Of a DNA stretch of 64,000 bases, positions 9,497 through 34,246 are shown piece by piece; within the stretch, counting starts at the first letter, position 1, and each line of letters starts with the position of its first letter. Below the pieces are notes generated by a model. The model ran no database searches. It was not told where the DNA came from and saw nothing but the letters and a program-made list of their open reading frames with translations. A program made the translations under genes and the position numbers. This DNA comes from Nocardia sp. BSTN01 (lineage in GTDB: Bacteria; Actinomycetota; Actinomycetes; Mycobacteriales; Mycobacteriaceae). The stretch spans positions 62,001 through 126,000 of the forward strand of contig NZ_JADKYP010000013.1 of assembly GCF_015354405.1 (NCBI RefSeq), read 5' to 3'.

Positions 9497-9510
9497 CTGA
9501 CCAACGTCCC
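9497..9510 (+). promoter_or_regulatory. DosR-like box upstream of the phosphoribosyltransferase-hydrolase gene
   Basis: CTGACCAACGTCCC fits the pattern nnGAC-n4-GtCCC seen at eleven other places in this island. It ends 100 nt before the gene start; a possible -10 (CATAGT) lies about 55 nt further on, placing the box about 60 nt upstream of transcription, as is usual for DosR. Confidence 0.6.
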
Positions 9511-9610
9511 ACGCATCGGAGCCTTCGGCACGATTCGGCGTCGCCGGCGATCGCGCATAGTGGCCGTATGAGAACCGGCGGTATCGGAAGGGCCGGGCAG
9601 GAGGCATTCG

Positions 9611-10948
9611 ATGGTGTTTCGTGATCGCGTCGACGCGGGCAGCCGGCTCGCGACGCGTTTGATCGCCCTGCGTGACACCGATGTCGTCGTACTGGGCCTG
9701 CCGCGCGGCGGAGTACCGGTCGCCTTCGAAGTGGCCCGGGCACTGCACGCACCGCTGGACGTCCTGGTGATCCGCAAGCTGGGCGTCCCCTATCAGCCCG
9801 AACTCGCCTTCGGCGCGGTCGGCGAGGACGACACCCGCGTACTCAACAGTCTGGTCGTGCGCCGCGCCGGGTTGTCCGAGGACGACATCGATGCGGTGCT
9901 GCGGCACGAGCGGGCGGAACTGGCGCGTCGGGTGGACATGTACCGGCAGGGGCGCGACGGACCGTCGCTGCGTGGCCGGACCGTGGTGCTGGTCGACGAC
10001 GGCATCGCGACGGGGGCCACCGCCCGCGCCGCCTGCCGCGTGGCCCGTGCCCGCGGCGCCGCCCGTATCGTCCTGGCCACTCCCGTCGCCACACGCGAGG
10101 CGCTGGCGTCGCTGCGGCCGGAAGCCGACGACATCGTCTGCCTGAAAACGCCACTGCTCTTCGACGCGGTCGGCCAGTGGTACCGGCACTTCGGACAGAC
10201 GAGCGACGACGAAGTCGTCGATCTGCTCGCCCGGTCGGCGGTCGCCGCCCGCGAACCCCCCGGCGTGCCCGAGCCCGGCGATCCGCCGCTGGTCGACGAC
10301 GAGGTCACCATCACCATCGGGGAGGCCGAACTGAGCGGCCATCTGACGGTTCCGGAAGCCGCGACGGGCGTGGTCGTCTTCGCCCACGGCAGCGGCAGCA
10401 GCAGGCACAGTCCGCGCAACCGATTCGTCGCCACCTCCCTGCAGCGGGCCGGATTCGGAACGCTGCTGTTCGACCTGCTCACCTCCGCCGAAGAGCTCGA
10501 GCGCGCCAATGTCTTCGCCATCGGTCTGCTGGCGAATCGGCTGGCAGGTGTCACGCGGTGGCTCGCCGGGATGCACTACGCCGACGACCTCCCGATCGGG
10601 TACTTCGGCGCCAGCACCGGGGCCGCTGCCGCGCTGCGGGCGGCCGCCGATCCGGAACTGAGGATCGCCGCCGTCGTCTCCCGCGGCGGCCGGCCCGACC
10701 TCGCCGACCTCTTTCTGACCGCCGTGCGCGCGCCGACCCTGTTGATCGTGGGCGGAGACGATCCGGCGGTGATCGAACTGAACCGGTTTGCCCAGCGAGC
10801 GATGGCGTGCGAGACACGCGTCGAGATCGTGCCCGGCGCCACCCACCTGTTCGCCGAGCCCGGCACGCTGGAAGTCGTGGCCGAACTGGCCCGCGACTGG
10901 TTCCGCACCCATTTCCGCGGGTCGACGACCGACCGCACACGACCGTGA
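9611..10948 (+). CDS. phosphoribosyltransferase-dienelactone hydrolase-like fusion (Rv0571c-like)
   Basis: 445 residues. Residues 1-215 are a type I phosphoribosyltransferase: LGLPRGGVPVAFEVA near 28-42 and the PRPP loop VVLVDDGIATGATA at 125-138. Residues about 228-440 are an alpha/beta-hydrolase: FAHGSGSSRHSPRN, nucleophile GASTGAAA (Ser near 334), acid VGGDDPAV and His GATHLF. The same two-domain order occurs in M. tuberculosis Rv0571c, a DosR-regulon protein of unknown activity. A DosR-like box upstream supports equivalent control. Start ATG at 9611 follows GGCAGGAGGC. Confidence 0.85.
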   Translation: MVFRDRVDAGSRLATRLIALRDTDVVVLGLPRGGVPVAFEVARALHAPLDVLVIRKLGVPYQPELAFGAVGEDDTRVLNSLVVRRAGLSEDDIDAVLRHERAELARRVDMYRQGRDGPSLRGRTVVLVDDGIATGATARAACRVARARGAARIVLATPVATREALASLRPEADDIVCLKTPLLFDAVGQWYRHFGQTSDDEVVDLLARSAVAAREPPGVPEPGDPPLVDDEVTITIGEAELSGHLTVPEAATGVVVFAHGSGSSRHSPRNRFVATSLQRAGFGTLLFDLLTSAEELERANVFAIGLLANRLAGVTRWLAGMHYADDLPIGYFGASTGAAAALRAAADPELRIAAVVSRGGRPDLADLFLTAVRAPTLLIVGGDDPAVIELNRFAQRAMACETRVEIVPGATHLFAEPGTLEVVAELARDWFRTHFRGSTTDRTRP

Positions 10949-11089
10949 CCGGGTATTCCGCCGTACCGCCCGCCCTTCTCCGGCCGCGCGGCAGATTCGA
11001 AAGTCCTTGATAATTCCCGACTTCCGGCACCCGTGCGCCACCGGTATCGAGCACATCACCGCACCCCGGGCCACATGGTCCACATTCCG

Positions 11090-11103
11090 GTGACTTTGGT
11101 CCA
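11090..11103 (+). promoter_or_regulatory. DosR-like box upstream of the Rv2004c-like gene
   Basis: GTGACTTTGGTCCA, an imperfect GGGAC/GTCCC palindrome, ends 36 nt before the ATG at 11140. A second weaker GGGCC/GGTCC arrangement sits about 20 nt upstream near 11067-11081 and could be a secondary site. Confidence 0.6.
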
Positions 11104-11139
11104 TCACGAATTCTCCGGTCATCGGCGACGCTGGTACCG

Positions 11140-12603
11140 ATGGAGACCAACGATCCCTTCGCCGCGCTCGCCGAAACGCATTCGGCGGTGGTGGTGCTGT
11201 ACGGCGACCGGGCCTACAAGATCAAGAAGCCGGTGCGGACCGACTTTCTCGACTTCTCCACGCGCGCCGCGCGCGAAGCCGCGTGCCTTCGCGAACTCGA
11301 GCTCAATCGGCGGTTCGCTCCCGATGTGTACCTCGGCATCGGGCACCTGTCCGATCCGACGCGGGATGCGGACGAACCCGTGCTGCTGATGCGCCGGCTC
11401 CCCGATGCCGCCCGGTTGTCGCGGCGCCTCGACGATCCGGCCGTCGCCCGCGACATCCTGTCGGTGCTCGTTCGCGATGTGGCCGCCTGGCACGACCGGG
11501 CGCCGACCGGGACGGCGATCGAACGCGCGGCGACGGTGGCGGCCGTTCGGGAGCGCTGGAAGTCGTTGCTGTCCGGGATGACCCATCCCCCGATCGAACC
11601 CGCTGCGGCGCGGGAGCTGACCGACCTGGCGATGCGTTACCTCGACGGACGAAAGGCGTTGTTCGACAAGCGCATCGCTACCGGGCGCATCGTCGACGGC
11701 CACGGCGATCTGCGCGCCGACGACATCTTCGTCACCGACGACGGCGTGCGGGTCATCGACTGCCTCGACTTCGACGACGAACTCCGCCACGTCGATCGGC
11801 TCGACGACATCTGCTTTCTGGCCATGGATCTGGAACGACTCGGGTACCCGGACCTGGGCCGGGCCGTCGCCGAGGAGTACCTCGAAGCGACCGGCGACCC
11901 GGCGCCGGACTCGCTGTATCACCACTACGTCGCCTATCGGGCGGCGGTGCGCGCGAAGGTCGACTGCGTGCGGTTCGGGCAGGGGGAACGGCGAGCGGCG
12001 GCCGGTGCGGTGCGGCACGTCGAGGTCGCCCTGCGACACCTCGCCGCCGGCGCGGTGCGCCTCGTGCTGGTCGGTGGCCTGCCGGGTACCGGCAAATCGA
12101 CGATCGCCCGCCGCCTGGCCACCGCGACCGGCGCGATCCTGTTGTCCAGCGACCACATTCGCGCCGTTGCGCGCGCCGAAGGCGTCCTTGACGGCGCGAC
12201 CGGCGAATACGACCACGGCGCCTACACCCCCGCCGCCCGCGATCACGTCTACGCGGTCATGTGCGCCGAGGCACGGACCCTGCTCGCCGCGGGCCGCTCG
12301 GTCGTTCTGGACGCCAGCTGGATCGACGATGCGCAACGACGCCGCGCGTCTCGGCTCGCCATCGAGACCGCAGCCGACCTCGTCGAACTTTGTTGCAGCG
12401 CACCGGCTTCCGTGGCCGCCGCGCGCATCACGGCGCGCACCGGATCCGAATCCGACGCCACACCCACCGTCGCGGCGGCCATGGCCGCGGATCGCGACCC
12501 GTGGCCCGGTGCGGTGGTACTGGATACCACCGCACCGGTGGACGAGACCACCGAGGCCGCGCTGCGTAGTTATCGGCACATCGAGGAGGGGACGCGCTCA
12601 TGA
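11140..12603 (+). CDS. APH-like kinase / AAA-type kinase fusion (Rv2004c-like)
   Basis: 487 residues with two kinase folds. Residues 1-295 resemble aminoglycoside-phosphotransferase-like kinases: lysines in YKIKKPV, catalytic loop DGHGDLRADDIF and metal-binding IDCLDFDDELR. Residues 305-480 form a P-loop kinase with Walker A GLPGTGKS near 313-320 followed by an Asp-containing VVLDASWIDD strand. M. tuberculosis Rv2004c has this organisation and belongs to the DosR regulon; its substrate is unknown. A DosR-like box 36 nt upstream agrees. Confidence 0.85.
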   Translation: METNDPFAALAETHSAVVVLYGDRAYKIKKPVRTDFLDFSTRAAREAACLRELELNRRFAPDVYLGIGHLSDPTRDADEPVLLMRRLPDAARLSRRLDDPAVARDILSVLVRDVAAWHDRAPTGTAIERAATVAAVRERWKSLLSGMTHPPIEPAAARELTDLAMRYLDGRKALFDKRIATGRIVDGHGDLRADDIFVTDDGVRVIDCLDFDDELRHVDRLDDICFLAMDLERLGYPDLGRAVAEEYLEATGDPAPDSLYHHYVAYRAAVRAKVDCVRFGQGERRAAAGAVRHVEVALRHLAAGAVRLVLVGGLPGTGKSTIARRLATATGAILLSSDHIRAVARAEGVLDGATGEYDHGAYTPAARDHVYAVMCAEARTLLAAGRSVVLDASWIDDAQRRRASRLAIETAADLVELCCSAPASVAAARITARTGSESDATPTVAAAMAADRDPWPGAVVLDTTAPVDETTEAALRSYRHIEEGTRS

Positions 12604-12695: not shown

Positions 12696-12728
12696 TACCG
12701 GTGTCGCGGACCATGGTCGCGGCACCTC

Positions 12729-12742
12729 GGGACCAACGGCCC
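12729..12742 (+). promoter_or_regulatory. DosR-like box upstream of the first Acg gene
   Basis: GGGACCAACGGCCC ends 35 nt before the ATG at 12778. One of the best palindromes of the set. Confidence 0.7.
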
Positions 12743-12777: not shown

Positions 12778-13767
12778 ATGAACACAGTGCCCTCACGCGA
12801 CGTCGTCGAGACAGCGGTCCGGATGGCAGGCCGTGCGCCGTCGCTGCACAACAGTCAGCCGTGGCGGTGGATGTTCGACGGGGCGCAGCTGCGGCTGTTC
12901 AGCGTGCACGAACGCATGCTGCCGACGACCGACGACACCGGCCGGCAGCTCGTGATCAGCTGCGGCGTCGTACTCGACCACCTGCGCGCGGCGATAGCCG
13001 CCCACGGGTGGCGCGCGATCGTGGCGACCTTCCAGAACCCCAACGACCGCACCCACCTCGCCGATGTCCGGTTCGAGCCGTCGCCGTACATCACCGACGG
13101 TGACCGCGAACGCGCCGACGCCATGGCGCGCCGGTACACCGACCGGCTCCCGTTCGACGAACCGGAGGGCTGGGAGCCGTTCGAGACCGTCCTGCGCACG
13201 GTGTTCGACCCCGAGGACACGATCGTCGACGTCCTGCCCGACGACAGCCGCGCGGAACTGGCCCGGGCGTCGGAGCTCACCGCGTCGGTGCGCCGCTACG
13301 ATGCCGACTATCACGCCGAATTGCATTGGTGGACAGGGCATGTGGTGGCCCAGACCGGCATTCCCCGGGAAGCGCTGGTGAGTGAGGAGGAACGCGGGCG
13401 CGTCGACGTCGGGCGGAGGTTGCCCACGGTCACCGGCGAACCACGTCGCACCGAGGTGCGCGCCGACCGGTCGAAGATCCTCGTGCTGTCGACCTACGGC
13501 GACAGCCCCGCCGAATGGCTGGCCTGCGGACGGGTGCTGTCCACCGTCCTGCTGGAGTGCACGCTCGCCGGCTACGCCACCTGCCCGCTGACCCATCTCA
13601 CGGAGGTCCCGCGCAGTCGCGGCGTGGTCACGCGGTTGCTCGGCCGCAATGCCTTCCCGCAGGTACTGATTCGCGTCGGGCGGGCGCCGGAGAATCAACC
13701 GCGCCCGGACCCGACGCCACGGCTGCCGTTGCGCGAGATCCTGCGCGTCACCGACGGCGCCGGCTAA
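12778..13767 (+). CDS. Acg-family FMN-binding nitroreductase-like protein (copy 1)
   Basis: 329 residues with the signature RAPSLHNSQPWRW near residues 19-31, LVISCGVVLDHLRAAI, an ELHWWTGH segment and ATCPLTHLTEVP near the C-terminus. Acg proteins (M. tuberculosis Rv2032, Rv3127, Rv3131) are DosR-regulon members of the nitroreductase fold; some have a lid over FMN and are thought to sequester flavin rather than reduce substrates. A second copy is at 21973-22971. Start ATG at 12778 lies 35 nt beyond a DosR-like box. Confidence 0.9.
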   Translation: MNTVPSRDVVETAVRMAGRAPSLHNSQPWRWMFDGAQLRLFSVHERMLPTTDDTGRQLVISCGVVLDHLRAAIAAHGWRAIVATFQNPNDRTHLADVRFEPSPYITDGDRERADAMARRYTDRLPFDEPEGWEPFETVLRTVFDPEDTIVDVLPDDSRAELARASELTASVRRYDADYHAELHWWTGHVVAQTGIPREALVSEEERGRVDVGRRLPTVTGEPRRTEVRADRSKILVLSTYGDSPAEWLACGRVLSTVLLECTLAGYATCPLTHLTEVPRSRGVVTRLLGRNAFPQVLIRVGRAPENQPRPDPTPRLPLREILRVTDGAG

Positions 13768-13881: not shown

Positions 13882-15156
13882 CTACCGTGCGAGAGATCGG
13901 CGCGCGAAGTAGATCGCCGCACCGATCGCCAGCACGACCGCGCCCGATACCACGGACGTGAGCGGGAGGGTGCAGGCCAGTACTACGCAGCCCACGGCGC
14001 CGACCACCGGAACCACGCGCGGCGGTCTGCCTTCCTCCGGAGTCAGCGTCCACGCGGAGGCGTTCGCGACGGCGTAGTAGCCGAGCACCGCGAAGGACGA
14101 GAATCCGATCGCGCCACGGAGATCGGCGGTCGCGGCGATCAGCGCCACGACCGCCCCGACCACCAGTTCGGCTCGATGCGGGACGGCGAAACGCGGATGG
14201 ACCGCGGCCAGCCGATGCGGCAGATGCCGATCCCGGGCCATGGCGAAGGTGGTGCGCGAGACCCCGAGGATCAATGCCAGCAGGGAGCCGAGCGCGGCGA
14301 CCGCCGCCCCGGCACGCACCACGGGCACGAGCCCGGGTCGCCCCGCCGCGCGCGCCGTCTCGGCGAGCGGCGCTGCGGCCGAGGCCAATTCGTGCGGCCC
14401 GAGCACCGTCAGCGCCGCGACGGCGACCACCGCGTAGACGACCAGCGTGATGCCGAGGGCCAGCGGGATCGCCCGCGGGATGATGCGGGCGGGGTCGCGG
14501 ACCTCCGCACCGAGGGTGGCGATGCGGGCGTAACCGGCGAACGCGAAGAACAACAGTCCGGCGGCCTGCAGAATGCCCCGGACCGATGTGTCGGCTCCGA
14601 TCGCCAACCGGCCCGCGTCGGCGGCGGAACCGGCGAACGCCGCGACGACGACCGCGGCCAGCACGGCCAGCACCAGCGCGACGACGATCCGGGTCAGCAG
14701 CGCCGACTTCTGCACGCCGCGATAGTTCACCGCGGTGAGCGCGACCACCGCCGCGACCGCCACCGCATGCGCATGGCCGGGCCAGGCGTAGGCACCGACG
14801 GTGAGTGCCATCGCCGCACACGAGGCCGTCTTACCGACGACGAAGCCCCAGCCGGCGAGATACCCCCAGAACTCCCCCAGGCGTTCCCGGCCGTAGACGT
14901 AGGTGCCGCCGGAGGCGGGATAGCGAGCGGCCAGACGGGCCGAGGAGGTGGCATTGCAGTAGGCGACGACGGCCGCGATCGCCAGCCCGATCAGCAGACC
15001 GGATCCCGCCGCGGCAGCCGCCGGGCCCAGCGCGGCGAAGATACCCGCGCCGATCATCGACCCGAGTCCGATCACCACCGCGTCGCCGAGGCCGAGCCGA
15101 CGGCACAGGCCGGCCGTTGCCTCGGAATCCATGAGCTCGAAGATAACGGAGTCCAC
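13882..15156 (-). CDS. APC-superfamily amino-acid permease
   Basis: 424 residues, about 12 hydrophobic segments. The first helix carries the family motif IGLGSMIGAGIFAALGPAA, followed by the second conserved segment YCNATSSARLAARYPASGGTYVYGRERLGEFWGYLAGW. This marks an amino-acid/polyamine/organocation transporter; the substrate is not predictable. Starts are GTG at 15156 or ATG at 15132 (MDSEATAG); neither has a clear ribosome site. It is the only ordinary transport gene inside the dormancy island and I see no DosR-like box for it. Confidence 0.85.
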   Translation of the reverse strand: MDSVIFELMDSEATAGLCRRLGLGDAVVIGLGSMIGAGIFAALGPAAAAAGSGLLIGLAIAAVVAYCNATSSARLAARYPASGGTYVYGRERLGEFWGYLAGWGFVVGKTASCAAMALTVGAYAWPGHAHAVAVAAVVALTAVNYRGVQKSALLTRIVVALVLAVLAAVVVAAFAGSAADAGRLAIGADTSVRGILQAAGLLFFAFAGYARIATLGAEVRDPARIIPRAIPLALGITLVVYAVVAVAALTVLGPHELASAAAPLAETARAAGRPGLVPVVRAGAAVAALGSLLALILGVSRTTFAMARDRHLPHRLAAVHPRFAVPHRAELVVGAVVALIAATADLRGAIGFSSFAVLGYYAVANASAWTLTPEEGRPPRVVPVVGAVGCVVLACTLPLTSVVSGAVVLAIGAAIYFARRSLAR

Positions 15157-15188
15157 GCGCGCCCGCCTGCCGGCCGCGCGTGACGCCG

Positions 15189-15614
15189 TCAGGCCTCGGT
15201 CGAAGCGCCGTCAGGCTCGGTCAGCGCATCGATGGCGTCGCGGAGTTTCGCGGCGGCCTCGGTCGCGATCGGTTGCAGTCCGGGATCACCGGTGACCTGC
15301 ACCATGACCTCGGGATCCATCGCTTCGACGATGACGGCTCCCGCGTCGCCCGGGTCGCGCCGCACGATCACGTTGCAGGGCAATAGCAATCCGATGCGGC
15401 GGTCGACGCCGACCGCGCGATGCGCCAGCGGCGGGTTGCACGCCCCGAGGATGAGGTAGTCCTCCATCTCCTCGCCGAGTTTGGCCTTCAGGGTCGCGGC
15501 CATATCGATCTCGGTCAGCACTCCGAAACCCTGCTCGGCCAGTGCGGCCCGCGTCCGCTGGACGGCATCGTCGAACCGGTCGGTGTGCAGCGTGGTGGAA
15601 ATCGCCAGATTCAT
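15189..15614 (-). CDS. DUF302 domain protein
   Basis: 141 residues, a single DUF302 fold: TDRFDDAVQRTRAALAEQGFGVLTEIDM near the N-terminus, GACNPPLAHRAVGVDRRIGLLLPCNVIVRR in the core and VQVTGDPGLQPIATEAAAKLRDAI at the end. DUF302 proteins are often encoded near sulfur-redox and persulfide-responsive genes; two Cys (GACNP and LPCN) are seen here. Last gene of the run CsoR-like repressor, DUF2892 protein, DUF302 protein, with 28-nt and 38-nt gaps. A related domain is fused to a GyrI-like domain at 34304-35185. Confidence 0.85.
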   Translation of the reverse strand: MNLAISTTLHTDRFDDAVQRTRAALAEQGFGVLTEIDMAATLKAKLGEEMEDYLILGACNPPLAHRAVGVDRRIGLLLPCNVIVRRDPGDAGAVIVEAMDPEVMVQVTGDPGLQPIATEAAAKLRDAIDALTEPDGASTEA

Positions 15615-15642
15615 GGTCGCCCGCTTTCTGTCGATGATGGGG

Positions 15643-15885
15643 TCAGGTTCGTGAGACGGCGCAGCCGGCGGTGGCCGGCAACCCCAGCCGCCGGAGCAGC
15701 AGGGTCGCCGGGCACCAGCCCGCGACGCCGTAGAGCAGCAGATTCGCGCCGACGAACCCGGTGAGAACGAGCCACCAGCCCGACCATGCCGCGGCCGCGA
15801 CCACACTGATCAGCACGAGGGTGCCGGCCAGCAGCGGTACGACGCGGGCGATGGACCAGCCCTGGTGGCGAGGTAGGTTCGGCAT
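15643..15885 (-). CDS. DUF2892 (YgaP-type) small membrane protein
   Basis: 80 residues with two hydrophobic helices (VVPLLAGTLVLISVVAAAAW and LVLTGFVGANLLLYGVAGWC) and a WCPATLLLRRLGL ending typical of DUF2892. This domain is the membrane anchor of YgaP-type rhodaneses and is common beside sulfide-responsive regulators. Start ATG at 15885 has GGAAGTG upstream. It sits between the CsoR/CstR-like repressor and the DUF302 gene. Confidence 0.8.
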   Translation of the reverse strand: MPNLPRHQGWSIARVVPLLAGTLVLISVVAAAAWSGWWLVLTGFVGANLLLYGVAGWCPATLLLRRLGLPATAGCAVSRT

Positions 15886-15923
15886 GCGTTCACTTCCGAA
15901 AATGGGTTGGGCGCCTTCGCTTT

Positions 15924-16214
<291 letters not shown>

Positions 16215-16218
16215 CTAC

Positions 16219-16252
16219 CCCTCCAGCATACCCCTGGGGGTATGCTGGAGGG
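16219..16252. promoter_or_regulatory. CsoR/CstR operator within a 34-nt perfect palindrome
   Basis: The core CATACCCC-TG-GGGGTATG (16227-16244) is extended to 16-nt arms with a 2-nt centre. It lies between the stop of the mmpL gene (16261) and the start of the repressor gene (16193), so it can serve as operator for the repressor and may also fold as a hairpin in the mmpL transcript. Confidence 0.8.
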
Positions 16253-16260
16253 TTGTGGCG

Positions 16261-18414: not shown

Positions 18415-18430
18415 AAAGCACACCTCCTCG

Positions 18431-18481
18431 ATACCCCTGGGGGTATATTTCATCTAGCGGCCAACATACCCCAGGGGGTAT
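18431..18481. promoter_or_regulatory. two CsoR/CstR-type operators between mmpL and the DsbA-like gene
   Basis: ATACCCCTGGGGGTAT at 18431-18446 and ATACCCCAGGGGGTAT at 18466-18481, centre-to-centre 35 nt. Each is an exact inverted repeat around a 2-nt centre and matches the core of the site at 16227-16244. They lie between divergent genes and could control both. Confidence 0.8.
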
Positions 18482-18546
18482 CTGGCACGCAAAGGTGCGC
18501 TCGGCCACATCCGGGTACACCGGCCGTGAAGACGAAAGGAGACGAC

Positions 18547-19182: not shown

Positions 19183-19196
19183 GTGACCTTCGGCCC
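19183..19196 (+). promoter_or_regulatory. DosR-like box upstream of the hibernation-factor gene
   Basis: GTGACCTTCGGCCC ends 49 nt before the ATG at 19246. Confidence 0.6.
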
Positions 19197-20090: not shown

Positions 20091-20104
20091 TGGACCTTCG
20101 CCCC
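20091..20104 (+). promoter_or_regulatory. weak DosR-like box upstream of the flavin-oxidase-fold gene
   Basis: TGGACCTTCGCCCC ends 68 nt before the GTG at 20173. The right half departs from GTCCC/GGCCC by one base, so support is moderate. Confidence 0.45.
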
Positions 20105-23131: not shown

Positions 23132-24865
<1,734 letters not shown>

Positions 24866-25842: not shown

Positions 25843-26436
25843 TTACGGAGTTCCTATGGGGCGACTGATTTTTCGCCATTCCCGGCCCCAGCCGGCACGA
25901 TGGCGCACGCCGAAGGCCCAGCCCGTCAGCCATACCAGTGCCGCCGTGGCGAAACAGATTTCGACGAAGGTGGCCATTCCCAGCCCGACGCCGCGCATCG
26001 CGGCGGTGTCGGCGGGCAGCGGCGCGGCGGTCGGGCGGCCGTCGGGGGCCAGCCACATGGTCACCTGCTGCCCGGGATGCGCCGAGGCGGCCACGGTTGT
26101 CGTGGCTTCGCCGGATCGCCCGTCGTGCGTCCACCGAACCGTGGCTTCGTAACGATCGGCGGACACGTCCATCGATGCCGCCGTCGTACGGACCGGATCG
26201 GTGACAATCGTGGCGGTAACCGCCGTCTTCGCCGCGTTCTCGCCGCGAATCTGCACGGCGGCATCGGTGTAGCGGGCCGTGCCCATCGCCGCGCAGATCG
26301 GCACCGCGGCGAGAACCACGACGACGGCCAGGATCCGGATGACGGACTCGATCCGGTCCGACGGCCGCATCAGCCGGTTCGCCGCCCAGGGACCGGTACG
26401 CCACGCGCGCAGGGCCAACGACGGATACCGAGTCAT
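25843..26436 (-). CDS. Rv1733c-like two-helix membrane protein
   Basis: 197 residues. Membrane helix about 34-54 (VIRILAVVVVLAAVPICAAMG), an extracytoplasmic stretch of about 95 residues (RYTDAAVQIRGENAAKTAVTATIV ... WLAPDGRPTAAPLP), then a second helix about 150-172 and a basic tail. This matches the known DosR-regulon antigen Rv1733c of M. tuberculosis in length, topology and wording (HPGQQVTMWLAPDG). Function unknown. Its promoter region has a DosR-like box 72 nt upstream. Confidence 0.85.
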   Translation of the reverse strand: MTRYPSLALRAWRTGPWAANRLMRPSDRIESVIRILAVVVVLAAVPICAAMGTARYTDAAVQIRGENAAKTAVTATIVTDPVRTTAASMDVSADRYEATVRWTHDGRSGEATTTVAASAHPGQQVTMWLAPDGRPTAAPLPADTAAMRGVGLGMATFVEICFATAALVWLTGWAFGVRHRAGWGREWRKISRPIGTP

Positions 26437-26508: not shown

Positions 26509-26522
26509 CGGCCGAAAGTCAC
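26509..26522 (-). promoter_or_regulatory. DosR-like box upstream of the Rv1733c-like gene
   Basis: On the minus strand GTGACTTTCGGCCG, 72 nt upstream of the ATG at 26436. Confidence 0.6.
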
Positions 26523-26632: not shown

Positions 26633-26646
26633 GGGACCAAAGGCCC
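26633..26646 (+). promoter_or_regulatory. DosR-like box upstream of the USP-SRPBCC operon
   Basis: GGGACCAAAGGCCC, one of the strongest matches, ends 97 nt before the ATG at 26744. Confidence 0.7.
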
Positions 26647-26743: not shown

Positions 26744-27694
26744 ATGAGCTCTCAGTACGCGGACGACGCGCACCATCTCGCCTCCGCCCCGATCGTGGTC
26801 GGTGTCGACGGGTCGGCCGGTGCCCGCACCGCGCTGCTGTGGGCGGCAGAGGTCGCCCGCGATCGAGGACGCGATCTGCGCATCGCCTACGGACTCGACC
26901 TGCCGAGCGCGAACCGGGTGTTCAACAACTACGACCTGTCCGAGCCCGCGGTGCTGGAACGCCTGCGCGCCCACGGCGCCGCACTGGTTGCCCGCGAGGC
27001 TCTCGCCGTGCGCGGCACTCTGCCCGAGGTCCAGGTCAGCACGGAGGTCTCCTCGGAGCATCCGGCGCGAATGCTGTTGCGGCACAGCGCTACCGGATAT
27101 CTGGTCGCCCTGGGGACAGCGGGCGCCGGCGGCTTCGGCGCCCACATCGGTTCGATCCTGCTGTCGGTCACCAGTCATGCCGAGGGCCCGGTCGTGGTGG
27201 TACGCACCGAATCCGAGGACCAGCCACGACCGCGCGAGACCGGCCCGGTGGTGGTCGGCGTCGACGGCAGCCCGCTCAGCGAGGCCGCGGTGGCGGCCGC
27301 GTTCGAGGAAGCCGCCGAGCGTGGCGCCGAACTGGTCGCCGTCCACGCGTGGAGCGATCTGACGTTCGGCTCGTTCGTCGGCGACCCGTACACCTGGTTC
27401 CCGATGTCGGATATCGAGGTGAACGAGGAAGCGATCCTCGCGGAACGACTGGCCGGCTGGCAGGAGAAGTATCCGGACGTCCCGGTGCGCCGCCACATCA
27501 GCATGGCCGAGCCCGCTGCCCATCTGCAGCGGTGGAGCGACTCCGCACAGCTCATCGTCGTCGGCAGCCACGGCCGCGGCAGCTTCCGCGGGCTGCTGCT
27601 GGGTTCGGTGTCCAATTCCCTTGTCCAGCATGCGAAATGCCCCGTCATGGTAGTGCGTTCGCCGGAGGGAGAGCAGGCGCATGACGAGGACTGA
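26744..27694 (+). CDS. tandem universal stress protein
   Basis: 316 residues with two USP domains starting IVVGVDGSAGARTALLWAAE and VVVGVDGSPLSEAAVAAAFEEA. The second domain has a standard motif GSHGRGSFRGLLLGSVSN; in the first the last glycine of G-2x-G-9x-G is replaced by Ser (GTAGAGGFGAHIGS), so nucleotide binding there is less certain. First gene of a three-gene operon: its end overlaps the SRPBCC gene by 14 nt. The DosR-like box upstream predicts hypoxic induction. Confidence 0.9.
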   Translation: MSSQYADDAHHLASAPIVVGVDGSAGARTALLWAAEVARDRGRDLRIAYGLDLPSANRVFNNYDLSEPAVLERLRAHGAALVAREALAVRGTLPEVQVSTEVSSEHPARMLLRHSATGYLVALGTAGAGGFGAHIGSILLSVTSHAEGPVVVVRTESEDQPRPRETGPVVVGVDGSPLSEAAVAAAFEEAAERGAELVAVHAWSDLTFGSFVGDPYTWFPMSDIEVNEEAILAERLAGWQEKYPDVPVRRHISMAEPAAHLQRWSDSAQLIVVGSHGRGSFRGLLLGSVSNSLVQHAKCPVMVVRSPEGEQAHDED

Positions 27695-28364
27695 GCATTC
27701 GGCGGCCCGTCGCGGTGCGGCCGCGGCGGTCGGCGTCGCATCCTTTCTCGGCGGGCTCGCCACCGGCTACCGGCTCTTCGCCCGCCGCTGGTGTCTGAGC
27801 TGGGGCGCGACCGAGGAGGAGGTGCGGCGGCGTATGCCGGGCGACGATCTGCTCCTGCTGCCCGACCTGCTCTCGACCCGGGCGCTCACGATCGCGGCCG
27901 ATCCCGGCGCGGTCTGGCCTTGGCTCGTGCAGTTCGGACCACAACGCGGCGGAATCTACAGCTACGACTGGATCGACCGGCTCCTGGGCATCGACGTGCA
28001 CAGCGCCCGGGCGATCCTGCCGCAATTCCAGGACCTCGCCGTCGGTGACGCCGTCACGGTGAATTCCGACAGCACCCCGTCCCGGGTAGTGGTGCTCGAA
28101 CCCGAACGAGCGCTCGTCTTCCGCACCGACGACGGGAACTGGGTCTGGGCGTTCGGACTGTATCCGTGCCCGGAGGGCACCCGGCTGGTCAGCCGCAACC
28201 GGATCGCGACGCCCGGCGCCTCGCCCGTGCTGCGGCTGTTCGACACCTTCGTCCTGGAACCGGGCAGTCTGGTGATGGAGCAGAAGATGTTGCGCGGCAT
28301 CAAGGAACGCGCCGAAGCACACCGCGTCGCCCAGCCTGTCCCGATCGGAAGCACGACACCGTGA
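27681..28364 (+). CDS. SRPBCC (START-like) family protein
   Basis: 227 residues. An N-terminal hydrophobic stretch (RGAAAAVGVASFLGGLATGYRLF) may anchor it to the membrane. The rest reads as an SRPBCC lipid-binding fold: ALTIAADPGAVWPWLVQFGPQRGGIYSYDWIDRLLGIDVHSARAILPQFQDLAVGD and the closing strand WVWAFGLYPCPEGTRLVSRNRI. The ligand is unknown. Coupled at both ends: overlap of 14 nt with the stress protein and GTGA overlap with the next gene. Confidence 0.75.
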   Translation: MTRTEHSAARRGAAAAVGVASFLGGLATGYRLFARRWCLSWGATEEEVRRRMPGDDLLLLPDLLSTRALTIAADPGAVWPWLVQFGPQRGGIYSYDWIDRLLGIDVHSARAILPQFQDLAVGDAVTVNSDSTPSRVVVLEPERALVFRTDDGNWVWAFGLYPCPEGTRLVSRNRIATPGASPVLRLFDTFVLEPGSLVMEQKMLRGIKERAEAHRVAQPVPIGSTTP

Positions 28365-28936
28365 CCACCACGGGCACCCCGACACCACTGCCGAGCGCGA
28401 CCGCGTTCCGCGCGGTCGCCCGGTGCGTGGTCACGACCGCCGGCCTGCTGGCACGCCACCGCATCCGCTGCCCGTCCCGGAACGTCGGAACATGGCTGAG
28501 TTTCGGTGACGGAACCTCGGCCTACGTCTACCGGGAAACCGTGATCGATCGGATCCCGTCGCCCGAACCGTGTGTGCTGCTGGTGCGTTTCGAGTTGCGG
28601 GGCGTGCGCGGGCGCGGGCATGCGTGGTTCCGTCGCGAGAGCATTCTCAACACCGTGCTCTTCGCCGGGTTCCCTGGCCTGATCACCAAGTTGTGGCTGG
28701 CGCACGATCAACGCGGTGCGTATCGCGGGCTCTACGAATGGGACGGGGCGGCCTCCGCCGACGCCTATGCCCGCGCCCTGTGGCGGGTGCTGGCCCTCGT
28801 CAGTGTCCCGGGAACGATCGATTATCGGGTGCTGCCCGGCCTGCGCCGCCGCGACCTGCCGGTGGCGGCGACCGGTCACGCCGCGGGTGGCACGCAATGG
28901 TGGCGGGTCACCGAATTCCATTCGAGCGCAGCCTGA
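28361..28936 (+). CDS. conserved hypothetical protein, third gene of the USP operon
   Basis: 191 residues starting at the GTG that overlaps the SRPBCC stop. No family recognised with confidence. Visible features: a beta-rich first half (TWLSFGDGTSAYVYRETVIDR, VLLVRFELRGVRG), a segment FRRESILNTVLFAGFPGLITKLWLAHD, then YRGLYEWDGAASADAYARALWRVLALVS, which resembles dimeric alpha/beta-barrel (monooxygenase-like) proteins where the EWD strand is followed by an Ala-rich helix. That assignment is a guess. Expected to be expressed with the stress protein under DosR. Confidence 0.55.
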   Translation: MTTTGTPTPLPSATAFRAVARCVVTTAGLLARHRIRCPSRNVGTWLSFGDGTSAYVYRETVIDRIPSPEPCVLLVRFELRGVRGRGHAWFRRESILNTVLFAGFPGLITKLWLAHDQRGAYRGLYEWDGAASADAYARALWRVLALVSVPGTIDYRVLPGLRRRDLPVAATGHAAGGTQWWRVTEFHSSAA

Positions 28937-29020: not shown

Positions 29021-32000
29021 TCAGTGCTCGTCGGTCGCCGGCAGCGTGACGCTCTCTCCGGTCGCCAGTACGACGGTGTGGCCGCGGCATTCGATCGTGA
29101 TCGACCGCGCTCCGTCCGTATCGGAGCTGATCTCGATCCGGCGGGCGTCGATCCGCACGGTCAGGCGATGACCGTGGTAGATGATCGCGAAGGTCAGTGT
29201 GCCCAGCTGGGGCGGCCAGCACGGGGCGAAGATCAAGCGGTTGTCGCGGGTCTCGAGCCCGGTGAAGCAGCGCTGGACCAGATCGATACTGCCGGCCATC
29301 GCGCCCAGGTGGATCCCCTCGGCCGTGGTGCCGCCCTGGATGTCGGCGATATCGGATTCCAGCACGCTGCCGAAGAATTCCATCGCGCGGTCCCGGTTCG
29401 CCCGGGCCAGCACCCAGGCGTGGACGACGGCGCTCAGGGTGGAGCCGTGCGAGGTGCGGGCCAGGTAGTAGTCGACGGTGCGCGGGATGTCCGGGCCGCC
29501 GAAGTCGTAGCCGAGCCCGGCGAACAGCCGCCCCAGCTCGTCGGCCGAGAACAGATAGAACAGCATCAGGACGTCGGCCTGTTTCGCCACTCGATACCGG
29601 TCGACGTCGTCGCCTTCGGCCTCGAGGATGCGGTCGAGCCGGCTGGTATCGCCGTAGCGGCGCCGGTAGTCGTCCCAATCCAATTCGGCGAGCCGGTCGT
29701 ATCCGGCGAACTGGCTGATCACTCCCTCGTGGAAGGGCACGAACATCCGATCGGCGACCTCGGCCCAGCGTTCGGATTCGGCGGCCGGCACCGCGAGGCG
29801 GTCGAGCAGTTCCGACCGCACCCGCGGCGGCAGCAGTTCGACCGCGTCCAGGGCGCGCCGGATGACCCACACGGCCATGACATTGGTGTAGGCGTTGTCG
29901 TCGATGCCCTGGTAGGGCTGCCCGGGATAGCCGGAATGAAATTCGTCGGGTCCGATGACACCGCGGATGTGATATCGGTCGTCGGCCGGATCGTAGCTGG
30001 CCCGATCGGACCAGAACCGGGCGATCTCCACCAGTAGTTCGGCGCCGAACTCGGCGAGGAACGCCCGATCTCCGGTGGCCTGGTAGTAGTGCCACACGTT
30101 ATAGGCCACCGCCGGACCGGCATGTTGCGCGCGAGCGCTGGCGTCCGGATTCCAGTGTCCCGAGCGGGGATTCAGATGCAGGCGCTGACTCTCCTCGCGC
30201 CCGTCGCTGCCGGATTGCCAGGGGAACAAGGCGCCGCGGCAGCCCTGTGCGCGCGCCGCGGCCCGCGCCTGCGGCAGGCGGCGGTAGCGGTACCGCAACA
30301 GTTCTCGCGTCAGTGCCGGATCGCGCAGGCTCACCACCGGCAGGACGAACAGCTCGTCCCAGAACACGTGCCCCCGGTAGGCCTCGCCGTGCAGCCCTCG
30401 TGCGGGCACCCCGGCGTCGAGGTCGGCGGTATGGCGCGACAGCGTCTGCGCCACCTGCAGGACGTGCAGTCGCAGTGCGCGCACCGATTCCTCACTGGCG
30501 CCCAGATCGATGCGCAGCCGCCGCCACACATGCTCCCAGGCATCGGCGTGCGCGGCGCGGAGCGCGTCGTAGTCCGGCGCCTCGTCGAGCAGGCGCAGGG
30601 CGGCCTCGTCGGGTGCGGAGATCGCGCGGTCGCGGCCGGTGAACACCGCCGCCGTCTTGTCGACGACGATGGCGCTCCGGGACTCGGCACGCACGACGAA
30701 ATCGTGGGCGGCGGTACCGTCGGCGAGCGGCGAGCCGGCCGTCTGCCGCCCGTGCGATGTCACCGTGGTCCGAGTGGCCACCGCCACGGTAATCAGCGAC
30801 TGGGTGGTTCGCATCAGCGTGGATGCGGTGTGCGCGTCCGGGATATCGATGCGCAGCTCGCTCAGGTGCGTTCCGGACAGGTCGCGGTACCGCTCGACTC
30901 CGGCGTTGCGGACCGATGTGTCGATCGCCGACCGGACGGTGAGCGGCCCGCTCCAGTTCTCGGGCGTCAGCGTGGTTCGCATCGCGCACGCGTGGGGTGA
31001 GTCCATCGACGCGAAACGCTGCTGAACCACGGCCGTGATCCGGCCGGCGGCGTCGCGGCAGCGCAGCCTGCGGGTGAGCACCGCCTGGCGCAGATCGAAT
31101 TGCTGTGTGTAGTCCAGCAATTCGGCATCGTCGAGATCGAACCATTCGCCGTCGGCGATGCGCCAGGTCAGGGGAAGCCAGTTCGGCAGATTCACCAGGC
31201 TCTCGTTCTCGACGTGCCGCCCGGCGATATCGTCGCCGAGCCGGTTGTAGATTCCCGCGACATAGGTTCCGGGATAGTGGTGGATTCCCGCGCGCGTCTC
31301 CGGTGCGGCCGCGCGGGTGACGAGGTAGCCGTTGCCCACCGCGCACAACGCTTCGCGCAGCCGCTCGGCGCCGGGGTCGTAGCCGTCGTAGGTGAGCAGC
31401 CACGAGCGTCCGACCGCCCAGTCGCTCTCCCCGGTCAGCAATTCGGCCATCCGCTGCAGGAATTCGCCGGCCCGCGCGGGACTGTCGAGGGCAAACCGTG
31501 CCGCGGTGCGCCGGTCGCCGGTGTCGCCGTGGCGAACCACCAGCGGCACTCCGGTGACCTGGATCGCGTCGAAGGCGTCCTCGTCGGTCAGATCGTCGCC
31601 GAGGTACATCGGCATCACCGGGCGGCCCACCAGATCCAGCACCCAGTGCAACGCCCGTCCCTTGTCCCAGTCCACATCGGGACGCAATTCGGTGACCTTG
31701 CGGCCGGCGGTCACGCGCAATCCCTGCCCGCGGGCGATATCGTGCACGGTGGCCACGACCGTCGAGACGGCATCGGCGGCGACCTTGCGGTGATGGACGG
31801 CGACCGCGAATCGTTTCGGCTCGATCAGCACCCCCGGAATCCGGCTCAACCGGTCGGCGAGTTCGGCCGCCGCCCGCACCAGCGCCCGCTCCGCCTTCGG
31901 GCCGCCGTCGTGCACGTGTTCGGTGCCGTCGGGCGCCATCAGTTCGAAACCGTGGCTACCGGCGTACCAGATGCCCTCGACGCCCACGCGCGTGCGCAGA

Positions 32001-32992
32001 TCCTCGAGTCCGCGACCGCTGATCACGGCGACGGGACACCGCGCCGCCAGTGTGACCAGGGTGGCGCGCACATTCTCGATCGGGATCGCCGCCTCGGGAT
32101 CGGGCACGATCTCCGAGATCGTGCCGTCGAAATCCAGCAGCACCGCGATGTGCTCGTCCTCGACGGCGTCGGCGATCGACGTCCAGCACGCCAGCGCGTC
32201 CGCGATCTCCGACAGGCGGCGGAATCCACTGCGCACCCGGATCTCCTCGGCGTCGGCGACCACCACGTCGGCTCCGGTGCACAGCAGCCGGTCCGGATCG
32301 CCGGCGCGCTCGATGCCGATCACCAGTCCGAAACCGCCGCGACGCCCGGCGCTCACCCCAGCCTCGGCATCCTCGACGACGACCGTCCGCTCGGGCTCGA
32401 CGTCCAGCCGTTGCGTGGCCAGCACCATGGTGGCCGGATCCGGCTTCCCCGGCAGGTCGAGTTCTTCGGCCACGACACCGTCCACCCGGACGGCGAACAG
32501 GTCCCCGAGCCCCGCGGCGTCGAGTACCTGAGCCGCATTGCGGCTCGCCGAGAACACCGCGGTCCGCACCCCCGCCGCGCGCAGGCGGCGCACCAGCGCC
32601 ACCGTGGTGGCGAACACCGGGACGCCCGACTCGGCGATCCGGGCGAGGAACATCTCGTCCTTGCCGTTGCCGAGTCCGCAGATCGTGGCGTCGGCCGCCG
32701 TGTCCGACGGTTCGCCCCGCGGCAGTGAGATCGCCCGGGAGGCAAGGAAATCCGCGACGCCGTCGTAGCGCGGTTTGCCGTCGACGTAGTCCTGGTAGTC
32801 GGAGGCGGTGAACGGCGCGCAGTTCTCGCCCGGCCCGGGTGTGCGCGCGGCGAGGAATCCGTCGAAGACCTGCGTCCAGGCGGCGGCGTGGATCGACGCC
32901 GTGTCGGTGACCACACCGTCCATATCGAAGATCACCGCGTCGTAGCGACGCGCGTCGATCACCGGCCCAGCCACCGATTTGTCAGGGTGCAC
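29021..32992 (-). CDS. OtsB1/Rv2006-like three-domain HAD - trehalose-phosphatase - GH65 protein
   Basis: About 1323 residues. Domain 1 (15-270): beta-phosphoglucomutase-like HAD with VIFDMDGVVTDT and GKPDPATMVLA. Domain 2 (280-520): trehalose-6-phosphate phosphatase-type HAD with LLDFDGTISEIVPDPE and YLGDDLTDEDAFDAI. Domain 3 (540-1323): GH65 glycoside phosphorylase with RGHVFWDELFVLPV and the general-acid segment GVIGPDEFHSGYPG (Glu near 1017). M. tuberculosis Rv2006 has the same order and length. Together these could phosphorolyse a disaccharide and handle the sugar phosphates. Start uncertain: GTG at 32992 or 32974. A DosR-like box lies 36 nt upstream. Confidence 0.88.
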   Translation of the reverse strand: MHPDKSVAGPVIDARRYDAVIFDMDGVVTDTASIHAAAWTQVFDGFLAARTPGPGENCAPFTASDYQDYVDGKPRYDGVADFLASRAISLPRGEPSDTAADATICGLGNGKDEMFLARIAESGVPVFATTVALVRRLRAAGVRTAVFSASRNAAQVLDAAGLGDLFAVRVDGVVAEELDLPGKPDPATMVLATQRLDVEPERTVVVEDAEAGVSAGRRGGFGLVIGIERAGDPDRLLCTGADVVVADAEEIRVRSGFRRLSEIADALACWTSIADAVEDEHIAVLLDFDGTISEIVPDPEAAIPIENVRATLVTLAARCPVAVISGRGLEDLRTRVGVEGIWYAGSHGFELMAPDGTEHVHDGGPKAERALVRAAAELADRLSRIPGVLIEPKRFAVAVHHRKVAADAVSTVVATVHDIARGQGLRVTAGRKVTELRPDVDWDKGRALHWVLDLVGRPVMPMYLGDDLTDEDAFDAIQVTGVPLVVRHGDTGDRRTAARFALDSPARAGEFLQRMAELLTGESDWAVGRSWLLTYDGYDPGAERLREALCAVGNGYLVTRAAAPETRAGIHHYPGTYVAGIYNRLGDDIAGRHVENESLVNLPNWLPLTWRIADGEWFDLDDAELLDYTQQFDLRQAVLTRRLRCRDAAGRITAVVQQRFASMDSPHACAMRTTLTPENWSGPLTVRSAIDTSVRNAGVERYRDLSGTHLSELRIDIPDAHTASTLMRTTQSLITVAVATRTTVTSHGRQTAGSPLADGTAAHDFVVRAESRSAIVVDKTAAVFTGRDRAISAPDEAALRLLDEAPDYDALRAAHADAWEHVWRRLRIDLGASEESVRALRLHVLQVAQTLSRHTADLDAGVPARGLHGEAYRGHVFWDELFVLPVVSLRDPALTRELLRYRYRRLPQARAAARAQGCRGALFPWQSGSDGREESQRLHLNPRSGHWNPDASARAQHAGPAVAYNVWHYYQATGDRAFLAEFGAELLVEIARFWSDRASYDPADDRYHIRGVIGPDEFHSGYPGQPYQGIDDNAYTNVMAVWVIRRALDAVELLPPRVRSELLDRLAVPAAESERWAEVADRMFVPFHEGVISQFAGYDRLAELDWDDYRRRYGDTSRLDRILEAEGDDVDRYRVAKQADVLMLFYLFSADELGRLFAGLGYDFGGPDIPRTVDYYLARTSHGSTLSAVVHAWVLARANRDRAMEFFGSVLESDIADIQGGTTAEGIHLGAMAGSIDLVQRCFTGLETRDNRLIFAPCWPPQLGTLTFAIIYHGHRLTVRIDARRIEISSDTDGARSITIECRGHTVVLATGESVTLPATDEH

Positions 32993-33027: not shown

Positions 33028-33041
33028 GGTACACAAGTCCC
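33028..33041 (-). promoter_or_regulatory. DosR-like box upstream of the OtsB1-like gene
   Basis: On the minus strand GGGACTTGTGTACC: one perfect half (GGGAC), one half with a single change. It lies 35 nt upstream of the GTG at 32992. Confidence 0.5.
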
Positions 33042-33208
33042 CATCCACACGGACACCGGTCCCCGGCCGCTTCAGGCGGCGGCGGCCACGCGCGTATGCC
33101 GGTCGGCCGGGACATCGCTTCGAACGGACCACCCGAACCGGCGTCGCCGGCTCCGAGTGTTGCTGTCGCACAGCTGATTCGGGCCGGGCACACACATCCC
33201 GGCCGGGC

Positions 33209-34093
33209 CTACCGCGGCTCCACGTGCTCCGGCACCACGAGTGTCGGGCAGTGGGCGCGATGCAGGACCGCGGCCCGCGTGGACCGCATCGTGGTTCCGA
33301 CCAGGCCCGTCCAGCGGTGCCGGCCCACCACCAGCAGCTGGGCGTCGCCCGCTCGTTCCAGCAGGACCTGCGCCGGACCGCCGAACATGACCTCCGACTC
33401 CAGCGCGACGTCCGGATACTTCCGGTGCCACGGATCCAATTGCCGATCCAGCGCCCGCGTCTCGTCCGCGCGGAACTGCTGGAGTTCCCCGTCCAGGACG
33501 AACCCGCCGACGTCGTCATCGCAGCATCGGACAGCCCGCAGACCGACCCCGCGCAACGCCGCCTCCTCGAACGCACAGCCGACCGCGGTGCCCTCCTCGT
33601 CGACGCCGACCACCACCGGCCGCCCGTCCTCGCCGACGGTGAACAGGCTTTCGCGGTGGACGACCGCGACCGGGCACCGGGCCTGCCGGGTGACCGCCGA
33701 GCTGACCGAGCCCAGCAGCGCCCGGCGGACCGCACCGCGGCCGTGGCTGCCGACCACGATCATCGGCGTGCGCGCCGAGCGCTCCACCAGTGTGTCGATC
33801 ACCGGATCAGCGGTGAGTTCGGTCGTGACCTCCACACCGTCGGCCACATGCCGGGCCATGGCCGCCGCCTCCGACAGCACGCCTTCGCCGTTCCAGTACA
33901 ACCATTCCCGGCCGCCGACGATCTCCATCGCGCTGAGTCCGGTGCGCGGGGCCGAGGCCGACGAGAGCAGGATCCGCAATCCCCACCGGCGCACGGCCGC
34001 CTCAGCCGCCGCCCACCGCACCGCCTGCAGCGCCGTACCGGATCCGTCGACCGCCGCGACGATCGTCCGCTCGGTCCCGTTGTCAGTGCTCAT
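33209..34093 (-). CDS. tandem universal stress protein (Rv2005c-like position)
   Basis: 294 residues. The N-terminal USP domain has VAAVDGSGTALQAVRWAAAEA and a full ATP motif GSHGRGAVRRALLGSVSS near 143. The C-terminal domain keeps the fold (VVVGVDEEGTAVGCAFEEAALRG) but its motif reads GRHRWTGLVGTTMRSTRA, lacking the G-2x-G spacing, so only one nucleotide site is likely. Start ATG at 34093 follows AGGAGGCGGCG. It precedes the OtsB1-like gene, as Rv2005c precedes Rv2006. DosR-like box 58 nt upstream. Confidence 0.9.
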   Translation of the reverse strand: MSTDNGTERTIVAAVDGSGTALQAVRWAAAEAAVRRWGLRILLSSASAPRTGLSAMEIVGGREWLYWNGEGVLSEAAAMARHVADGVEVTTELTADPVIDTLVERSARTPMIVVGSHGRGAVRRALLGSVSSAVTRQARCPVAVVHRESLFTVGEDGRPVVVGVDEEGTAVGCAFEEAALRGVGLRAVRCCDDDVGGFVLDGELQQFRADETRALDRQLDPWHRKYPDVALESEVMFGGPAQVLLERAGDAQLLVVGRHRWTGLVGTTMRSTRAAVLHRAHCPTLVVPEHVEPR

Positions 34094-34151
34094 CGCCGCC
34101 TCCTGCTGCCGGGCCTGCTCCGATCGTCCGGCTGCGGTGACCGACGATCTA

Positions 34152-34165
34152 GGGCCGAAAGTCGC
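34152..34165 (-). promoter_or_regulatory. DosR-like box upstream of the universal stress gene
   Basis: On the minus strand GCGACTTTCGGCCC, 58 nt upstream of the ATG at 34093. Confidence 0.6.
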
Positions 34166-34232
34166 CATCGCGGGCCGCCTTCGTCCGCGGCCCGCCACCG
34201 GGGCGAAGTCGGCGCGTTCGTCCCGGCAGGAC

Positions 34233-34246
34233 AGGCCCTTGGTCCC
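34233..34246 (+). promoter_or_regulatory. DosR-like box upstream of the GyrI-DUF302 gene
   Basis: AGGCCCTTGGTCCC (reverse complement GGGACCAAGGGCCT), ending 57 nt before the ATG at 34304. With the box at 34152 it gives each divergent gene its own site. Confidence 0.65.

Follow-up and report, generated by a model that had tools for sequence, protein, structure and literature searches.

The window considered here, that is the whole 64-kb stretch covering positions 62,001 to 126,000 of contig NZ_JADKYP010000013.1 of Nocardia sp. BSTN01, holds within 24.9 kb of a 7.79-Mb genome the genes for a DosR response regulator, a DosS sensor kinase and several families of putative DosR targets. With good confidence, and judging by its sequence, we take this block to be a real, probably functional clustered DosR (DevR) regulon. 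The product of dosR (21229..21888, plus strand) finds its best match in the DevR structure 3c3w (E 1.3e-104) and retains the recognition-helix stretch; its nearest named relatives, each at 99%, come from Nocardia africana NBRC 100379 and N. nova MDA0897, on which ground we assign the strain to the N. nova group, and it is the one close DosR in the genome, the next-best regulator showing 40% identity. The dosS gene (23147..24865, plus) encodes two GAF stretches together with HisKA_3 and HATPase domains (Pfam) and is the single full-length DosS match in the genome; its first GAF domain, GAF-A, is nearest to the DosT domain 2vzw (E 1.9e-68) and retains the motif HHPPM, which presumably holds the haem-ligand histidine. 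Between the two genes lies acg2 (21973..22971, plus; NF047509), one of two Acg family genes in the island. Ten DosR matches in phage records, among the matches listed, stay below 45% identity, and internal stops are marked in some Nocardia DosR matches, which may merely reflect alignments extending beyond the natural stop. Two short open frames (G000:C45:102955-103317 and G000:C177:16986-17327; 209 and 181 aa) share 40-42% identity with the ATPase part of DosS only.

Family and domain scans of the window proteins recovered every gene family named in a preliminary description of this DNA. Assignments follow Pfam and NCBIfam families, and Rv names were given from domain order and recall, not from a search of an M. 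tuberculosis genome, except for Rv1733c, where the NCBIfam model itself carries the name; several gene starts (acg1, acg2, the Rv0079-like gene, the fusion gene and Usp3) are presumed, and operon membership is deduced from gene order. On the left, all on the plus strand, lie a gene for a phosphoribosyltransferase (PRT) joined to a dienelactone-hydrolase-like part (9611..10948), which we take to be Rv0571c-like, an AAA_33 kinase-like gene (11140..12603), presumably Rv2004c-like, and acg1 for the first Acg family flavin mononucleotide-binding oxidoreductase (12778..13767; NF047509). Five passenger genes identified by domain scans occupy 13882..19155, namely, all on the minus strand, those for an amino-acid permease, a DUF302 protein, a YgaP-like transmembrane protein and an MMPL protein, and, on the plus strand, that for an Rv2466c-like protein. 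Next on the plus strand come a hibernation-factor-like protein with an S30AE C-terminal domain (19246..20067; PF16321), in our assumption Rv0079-like, a pyridoxamine 5'-phosphate oxidase family (PNPOx) protein (20173..20682; PF12900), presumably Rv3129-like, and a DUF2267 protein (20666..21127), followed by dosR, acg2 and dosS. An open frame at 20145-20669, considered as the gene of the PNPOx region, is a shadow frame of the true gene at 20173-20682.

Right of dosS, the minus strand carries Usp1 (24906..25817), a double-domain universal stress protein (Usp) gene, and an Rv1733c family gene (25843..26436; NF050032), while the plus strand carries Usp2 (26744..27694), a gene without a Pfam match that is kept in the islands of relatives (27681..28364) and a weakly YdhR-like gene whose match falls below the Pfam cut-off (28361..28936). 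The block closes on the minus strand with a fusion of HAD, trehalose-phosphatase (OtsB) and GH65 domains (29021..32962), an architecture we assume to be that of Rv2006, and Usp3 (33209..34093). The preliminary description spoke of three tandem stress proteins; three double-domain Usp are indeed encoded, but their genes are mutually non-adjacent, at 24.9, 26.7 and 33.2 kb. The scanned window proteins contain no integrase or transposase domain, the window holds no tRNA, and its G+C content of 0.666-0.713 per 5 kb nowhere deviates, so that we do not class the block as a mobile genomic island.

Twelve 14-mers had been proposed as DosR boxes, and all twelve are found where the preliminary description placed them. 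The form given for them, nnGAC-n4-G(t/g)CCn, fits ten on one strand; the box at 20091, with a GCCCC right half, and that at 33028, whose minus-strand right half is GTACC, deviate. Their placement upstream of transcription units holds, with 42-107 nt from box centre to presumed start at 11 sites and 147 nt at 34233, the presumed starts being of our choosing. We scored the sites with an independent matrix of 20 columns, built from 135 distinct sites of 43 mycobacterial loci with Nocardia excluded, and give each score here together with the hexamer beginning at +30, a position counted in nt from the box centre toward the GKCC side. On the plus strand, boxes precede the PRT-hydrolase gene (9497..9510, 7.0 bits, no -10 at +30), the AAA_33 gene (11090..11103, 10.7 bits, GACGCT), acg1 (12729..12742, 14.3 bits, TACCGT), the Rv0079-like gene (19183..19196, 20.1 bits, TGGTAT), the PNPOx gene with its DUF2267 neighbour (20091..20104, 10.0 bits), dosR itself, where the box is a near-palindrome (21163..21176, 14.5 bits, TATGGT), acg2 (21901..21914, 14.7 bits, no -10 at +30), and Usp2 with the two small genes behind it (26633..26646, 16.9 bits, AAAGGT). 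Four boxes are read on the minus strand, upstream of the Rv1733c family gene and Usp1 (26509..26522, 11.6 bits, GATGCT), of the OtsB-GH65 fusion gene, off consensus (33028..33041, 8.1 bits, GAGCCT), and, as a proximal and a distal site, of Usp3 (34152..34165, 15.3 bits, GACGAT; 34233..34246, 7.5 bits, the weakest case). The dosS gene, which follows acg2, has no site of 7 bits of its own. The frequent GGCCC right half had been regarded as a local variant, a view that does not stand: it is the commonest right half in the mycobacterial loci, where, among 56 GGGACnnnnGnCCC sites of the 43 loci, the G is followed by another G 25 times, by T 18 times, by A 7 times and by C 6 times. A Rhodococcus-type set has T in 8/10, and AGGGACCTTCGGCCCC is present in S. 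coelicolor.

These sites are strongly concentrated in the island. The pattern GACYWWNGKCC matches 171 times in the genome and 12 times in the 24.9-kb island, against 0.51 expected (Poisson 4e-13), the latter matches comprising ten of the twelve boxes plus 12707 (minus) and 18689 (plus); this count is partly circular, because the YWW core was read off the window sites. The reversed pattern, used as a control, is commoner (434 matches), and the motif is therefore not over-represented genome-wide, its clustering being the notable feature. As background for the independent matrix we used 800 kb of this genome, in 40 stretches that were regularly spaced on the larger contigs and not random; in all, the matrix scans covered about 12% of the genome. 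At 9 bits or more the island holds 12 sites against 0.84 expected from this background, and at 12 bits or more 7 against 0.12, with none in the rest of the window and 4 in the 800 kb, a density far from equal to that elsewhere. Three sites of at least 9 bits lie outside the proposed twelve (10994, 27608 and 33387), the last two inside Usp genes; we rejected 10994 (12.3 bits) as a box, because of three relatives two have lost or changed it and the third has one change. It could be argued that a G+C-rich genome offers many chance matches, from which the eye selected these 14-mers, and that the clustering of stress genes is passive, and the 159 pattern matches outside the island and the two boxes that break the given form lend this some colour; we hold it to be highly improbable, since it is contradicted by the enrichment under the independent matrix, by the conservation of the boxes and by their spacing to a -10-like hexamer.

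Conservation was measured for 11 sites in 14 stretches taken from 10 genomes, which gave 63 box-relative pairs (one stretch, L171, was dropped as coming from the same assembly as L010). Among these Nocardia relatives 31/882 box bases differ (3.5%), against 807/6074 flank bases (13.3%), and the box window ranks fourth of 100 for divergence, the three lower windows adjoining it with a shift of one or two bases. A second trough lies on the gene side at +24 to +35, with a divergence of 0.064-0.074 against 0.138-0.209 in the mirrored bins. Box 26633 is identical in all nine stretches found and box 11090 unchanged in L160 and three other stretches; mismatches number 0-1 for boxes 12729 (4 relatives), 19183 (stretches of 6 relatives), 26509 (10 stretches), 34152 (6), 21901 (8) and 34233 (four near stretches), 0-2 for box 20091 (stretches of 7 relatives) and 1 for box 33028 (5 stretches). 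The twelfth site, 9497, outside the 63-pair count, shows 0-1 mismatch in three relatives.

The boxes are also polar. At 7/12 window sites the distance between the box centre and the start of an NAnnnT hexamer, on the GKCC side, is exactly 30 nt; the next-best offset reaches 4 sites and the best mirrored one 3. The probability of this by chance is 3e-9 for a single offset and 4e-7 when all 134 offsets are allowed for. NAnnnT was loosened from TAnnnT after viewing the window hexamers, and motif and offset were both chosen on the window, so that the other clades provide the independent test. There the same peaks recur at +30 and +31, with 67 and 34 of 141 sites in mycobacteria, 21 and 12 of 62 in the Rhodococcus-type set and 7 and 8 of 19 in the Amycolatopsis-type set, as well as 17 and 13 of 64 in Nocardia (window included), against a median over offsets of 0-4 in the four groups. 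By side, NAnnnT occurs among the 286 sites on the GKCC side only in 173, on the GAC side only in 12, on both in 2 and on neither in 99; for 45 weaker background sites of this genome the figures are 5, 1, 0 and 39 (cut-off 8 bits for the background and 11 for the other sets). The strict form TAnnnT at +30/31 is found at 48/286 sites on the GKCC side and at 7 on the mirrored side, and the share of sites with a -10 climbs with site strength, from 15/50 at 11-13 bits to 92/137 above 17. All contexts share less than 80% identity with one another, but the genomes are related, and the sites are not independent events. In a weaker test at 12 bits on the four sets, which used starts from a crude G+C-based gene caller, 85 sites are oriented with the nearest gene and 34 against it, the rest lying between divergent genes (48), within genes (8) or elsewhere (92). 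Mycobacterial contexts additionally show secondary -10 peaks at about +51/52 and, mirrored, at 52/53, as would be expected if a further box, in either orientation, lay 21-22 nt upstream of the first; this arrangement is not seen at the window's own sites, where the top score 15-28 nt upstream is 3.1 bits and we claim no second box. No orientation rule for the DosR motif is stated in the part of PMC6448022 available to us, and as our coverage of the subscription literature was slight, we do not claim that such a rule is unpublished.

Low divergence relative to the flanks and a -10-like hexamer at a fixed 30 nt suggest that the boxes are functional. The locus combines a DevR-orthologous NarL-type regulator, a two-GAF kinase with a DosS/DosT-type first GAF domain, Usp and Acg target families, and boxes upstream of targets above background, all of them features of a DosR (DevR) regulon; the enriched, conserved boxes, often 30 nt from a -10-like hexamer, support a clustered regulon of DosR type. 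We propose a model where the GAF kinase DosS would bind haem and respond to the loss of oxygen or to NO or CO, autophosphorylate, and pass the phosphate to the conserved aspartate of DosR, dimers of which would then bind the boxes. The boxes are polar, with the GKCC half pointing toward the gene, and given the 30-nt spacing to the hexamer at 7/12 sites, DosR would lie over the -35 position and recruit RNA polymerase; in M. tuberculosis the box is centred near -42. DosR would also drive its own gene in a positive loop, and the boxed units would supply a ribosome-hibernation-like factor, Acg oxidoreductases, double-domain Usp, the trehalose-phosphatase/GH65 fusion and other DosR-regulon families, from what may be, with less certainty, largely one place in the genome. 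Alternatively, the kinase might sense redox state or a ligand other than oxygen and act as a general stress or developmental switch, which we consider unlikely: haem binding by DosS is beyond proof from sequence, but GAF-A is nearest to the DosT domain and retains HHPPM with its presumed haem-ligand histidine. A precedent for such a switch is OsdR of S. coelicolor, which controls development and stress in the account seen of PMC5069765.

How far the regulon extends beyond the island is a separate matter. The genome has 17 Usp-domain matches, six of them in the three double-domain genes of the island, and two of its four Acg genes over the cut-off lie inside the island; nine outlying Usp or Acg stretches (120 kb) contain 9 sites of at least 7 bits, none with a -10 at +30/31. 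Since these nine loci lack a box with a -10, the DosR regulon of this genome may be largely local. The cluster could, on the other hand, be real and the regulon not local, with working boxes at many promoters elsewhere and the island as its densest part, as with OsdR, for which the part of PMC5069765 seen predicts 43 sites, many of them far from osdR; we put this alternative not far below an even chance. It draws on the 159 pattern matches outside the island and on the 27 background sites of at least 9 bits in 800 kb, three of which have a -10, and is opposed by the nine outlying loci, by the location of 16 of these 27 sites within genes, and by the background sites of at least 12 bits, of which 0/4 have a -10. 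Sites with a -10 make up 8/16, 7/12 and 4/7 of those in the island at 7, 9 and 12 bits, and 6/79, 3/27 and 0/4 of those in the background. Overall, the regulon is probably concentrated at the island, and to call it wholly local would go further than this evidence reaches.

Several observations weigh against the reading of the block as a functional, largely local regulon. Five of the twelve boxes have no NAnnnT at +30, and the divergence trough at +24 to +35 has a counterpart of equal depth at +54 to +59. Box 21901 has drifted to 3 mismatches in G085, and box 34233 to 3 in G085 and 5 in G124, both distant. The passenger region (13.88-19.16 kb) contains no matrix site of at least 7 bits, so that five island genes are boxless, and next to the acg gene of contig 110 there is a site of 10.8 bits that points away from this gene and has no -10. 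Confinement is made uncertain by the background sites with a -10, which at 7 and 9 bits scale to dozens genome-wide, and both DosR-dependent induction by low oxygen or NO and binding to the boxes are predictions.

Comparison with other genomes bears out in part the suggestion that the regulon may be inherited as one unit. The block is conserved in the N. nova clade, and two more distant genomes (G085 and G124, DosR 93%) retain the order dosR-acg2-dosS-Usp1-Rv1733c-Usp2-Usp3; the acg gene with its own box between dosR and dosS (21888-23147) has the same position in all of these. Elsewhere the block is reshuffled: in G124 a distance of 525 kb separates the fusion gene from the listed DosR, and Nocardia further removed show these families round DosR in other orders. 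One N. nova-clade stretch (L165, G084:C107) has the right half of the island and three boxes yet no DosR at 1e-60; the regulator may have been lost recently, or the assembly may have a gap. DosR is found at 1e-60 in 142/151 Nocardia genomes, with 1 to 5 matches each. The fusion gene lies at most 40 kb from a listed DosR in 36/38 same-contig cases (our genome among the 38), against 0/6 for GH65-only paralogues; of the remainder of 69 fusion genes, 15 have the listed DosR on another contig and 16 have none listed, DosR places being taken among the matches listed, so that none listed does not mean absent (G116 has one). Partial fusion matches (G022, G042, G044, G099 and the second of G102) and partial GH65-only matches (G030 and G065) were left out. 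Counting loci of at least 15 kb, with L009 and L010 outside the Nocardia set, target families occur within 10 kb of DosR in 35/36 mycobacterial, 16/16 Nocardia, 7/7 Rhodococcus-type, 6/6 Amycolatopsis-type and 8/9 plasmid loci, and in 1/40 background stretches; three mycobacterial loci, L032, L034 and L035, likewise show these families clustered round a DosR. Because the families stay near DosR while their order and membership vary between genomes, the unit is, on this comparison of gene orders, a neighbourhood that changes its members. Between Rv1733c and Usp2 (window 26437-26743) sister genomes have one more Acg-like gene, and between the Rv2004c-like gene and acg1 (window 12604-12777) they have several additional kb that hold a Usp-like gene and, in some of them, a PRT-like one, which suggests that the compactness seen here is partly secondary. 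A record titled as a Bifidobacterium breve metagenome-assembled genome (L027) has DosR (79%), DosS, Usp and OtsB-GH65 relatives and looks mis-binned from another actinobacterium.

Gene order differs on Rhodococcus plasmids too. DosR occurs at 1e-70 in 24 plasmid records, 16 of them from Rhodococcus, and we examined stretches of nine Rhodococcus records (L089-L093, L177-L180) and one Streptomyces record, one record being unannotated. The nine Rhodococcus stretches contain 61 sites of at least 12 bits, roughly a fivefold excess over shuffled sequence, and 40 of the 61 have a -10; two stretches hardly exceed their shuffles (L178, 3 sites against 1.3; L179, 2 against 1.1), and the Streptomyces stretch has one site. 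DosS lies within the 10-kb range in 8/9 of the Rhodococcus stretches, and the neighbours include DosS and Usp, the trehalose fusion (L090, L091, L178), wax-ester synthases (L090), Hsp20 with encapsulin (L092, L177), hydrogenase (L091) and nitrate reductase (L179). Plasmids such as pRWAY01 and pDK1 share with our locus DosR and DosS, the boxes, and relatives of Usp, Acg or OtsB-GH65, and differ from it in plasmid location, other neighbours and gene order. Rhodococcus plasmids possibly carry dormancy regulons, and among the papers listed none announces a plasmid-borne DosR in its title or abstract opening.

A clustered Nocardia DosR regulon would offer a compact model of low-oxygen survival switching away from the tubercle bacillus, the polar box at a fixed distance from the -10 would, if confirmed, give a simple rule that sharpens the prediction of DosR targets in actinobacteria, and the plasmid-borne relatives raise the idea of a dormancy programme acquirable in one step. 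Specialists may take an interest in the promoter module with its polarity, in a regulon concentrated at one locus, and in the relatives on plasmids. In M. tuberculosis the genes of the DosR regulon are scattered over the chromosome. We tentatively suggest, as an idea we think conceivable rather than probable, that the DosR regulons of actinobacteria other than the tubercle bacilli are portable cis-clusters. These would duplicate, exchange members and move as neighbourhoods, both on chromosomes, where a Nocardia genome has up to five copies of DosR, and on plasmids of Rhodococcus, and a polar module (asymmetric box, spacing of 30-31 nt, -10) would keep them together; the scattered M. tuberculosis regulon would then be derived, and DosR would here be the dedicated local regulator of one island.

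Among the papers listed on DosR with Nocardia, none shows a Nocardia DosR regulon in its title or abstract opening. Nocardia islands are likewise not described in the parts seen of PMC5322544, PMC10034137, PMC11876180 and PMC3388012, whose subjects are mycobacterial, and devR/dosR is listed among N. seriolae genes in the portion seen of PMC12414942. The preliminary description was right to place the island outside Mycobacterium, but this is not new: as far as the accessible text of each source goes, OsdR/OsdK of S. coelicolor (PMC5069765) and predicted boxes of Rhodococcus equi 103S, of the form NNNGGGHCNWWNGNCCCBNN and accompanied by DosR homologues (PMC2947987), precede it. Mycobacterium DosR/DosS/DosT (DevR/DevS) shares with our locus the regulator, GAF kinase, box and target families, and, in the parts of the papers seen, its asymmetric box consensus GGGACTTNNGNCCCT is in print (PMC6448022) and its proximal box overlaps the -35 (PMC3029386); it differs in that the genes here form one 25-kb block, in which, as in the window, family scans of the proteins find no Hsp20 or wax-ester synthase family, nor nitrate reductase. 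A parallel to the clustering is the OsdR/OsdK core regulon of S. coelicolor (SCO0167-SCO0219), where, in the available part of PMC5069765, regulator, kinase, Usp and nitroreductase-family targets lie together with GGCCC right halves and eight predicted sites control 20/22 genes near osdR, the differences being a palindromic consensus, AGGGCCGATCGGCCCT, with a GGGCC left half and the inclusion of nitrate reductase. A clustered DosR-type regulon outside Mycobacterium is thus already known in kind from OsdR, and the Nocardia locus is, by its sequence likeness, a well-preserved relative of the systems known from tuberculosis bacteria and Streptomyces.

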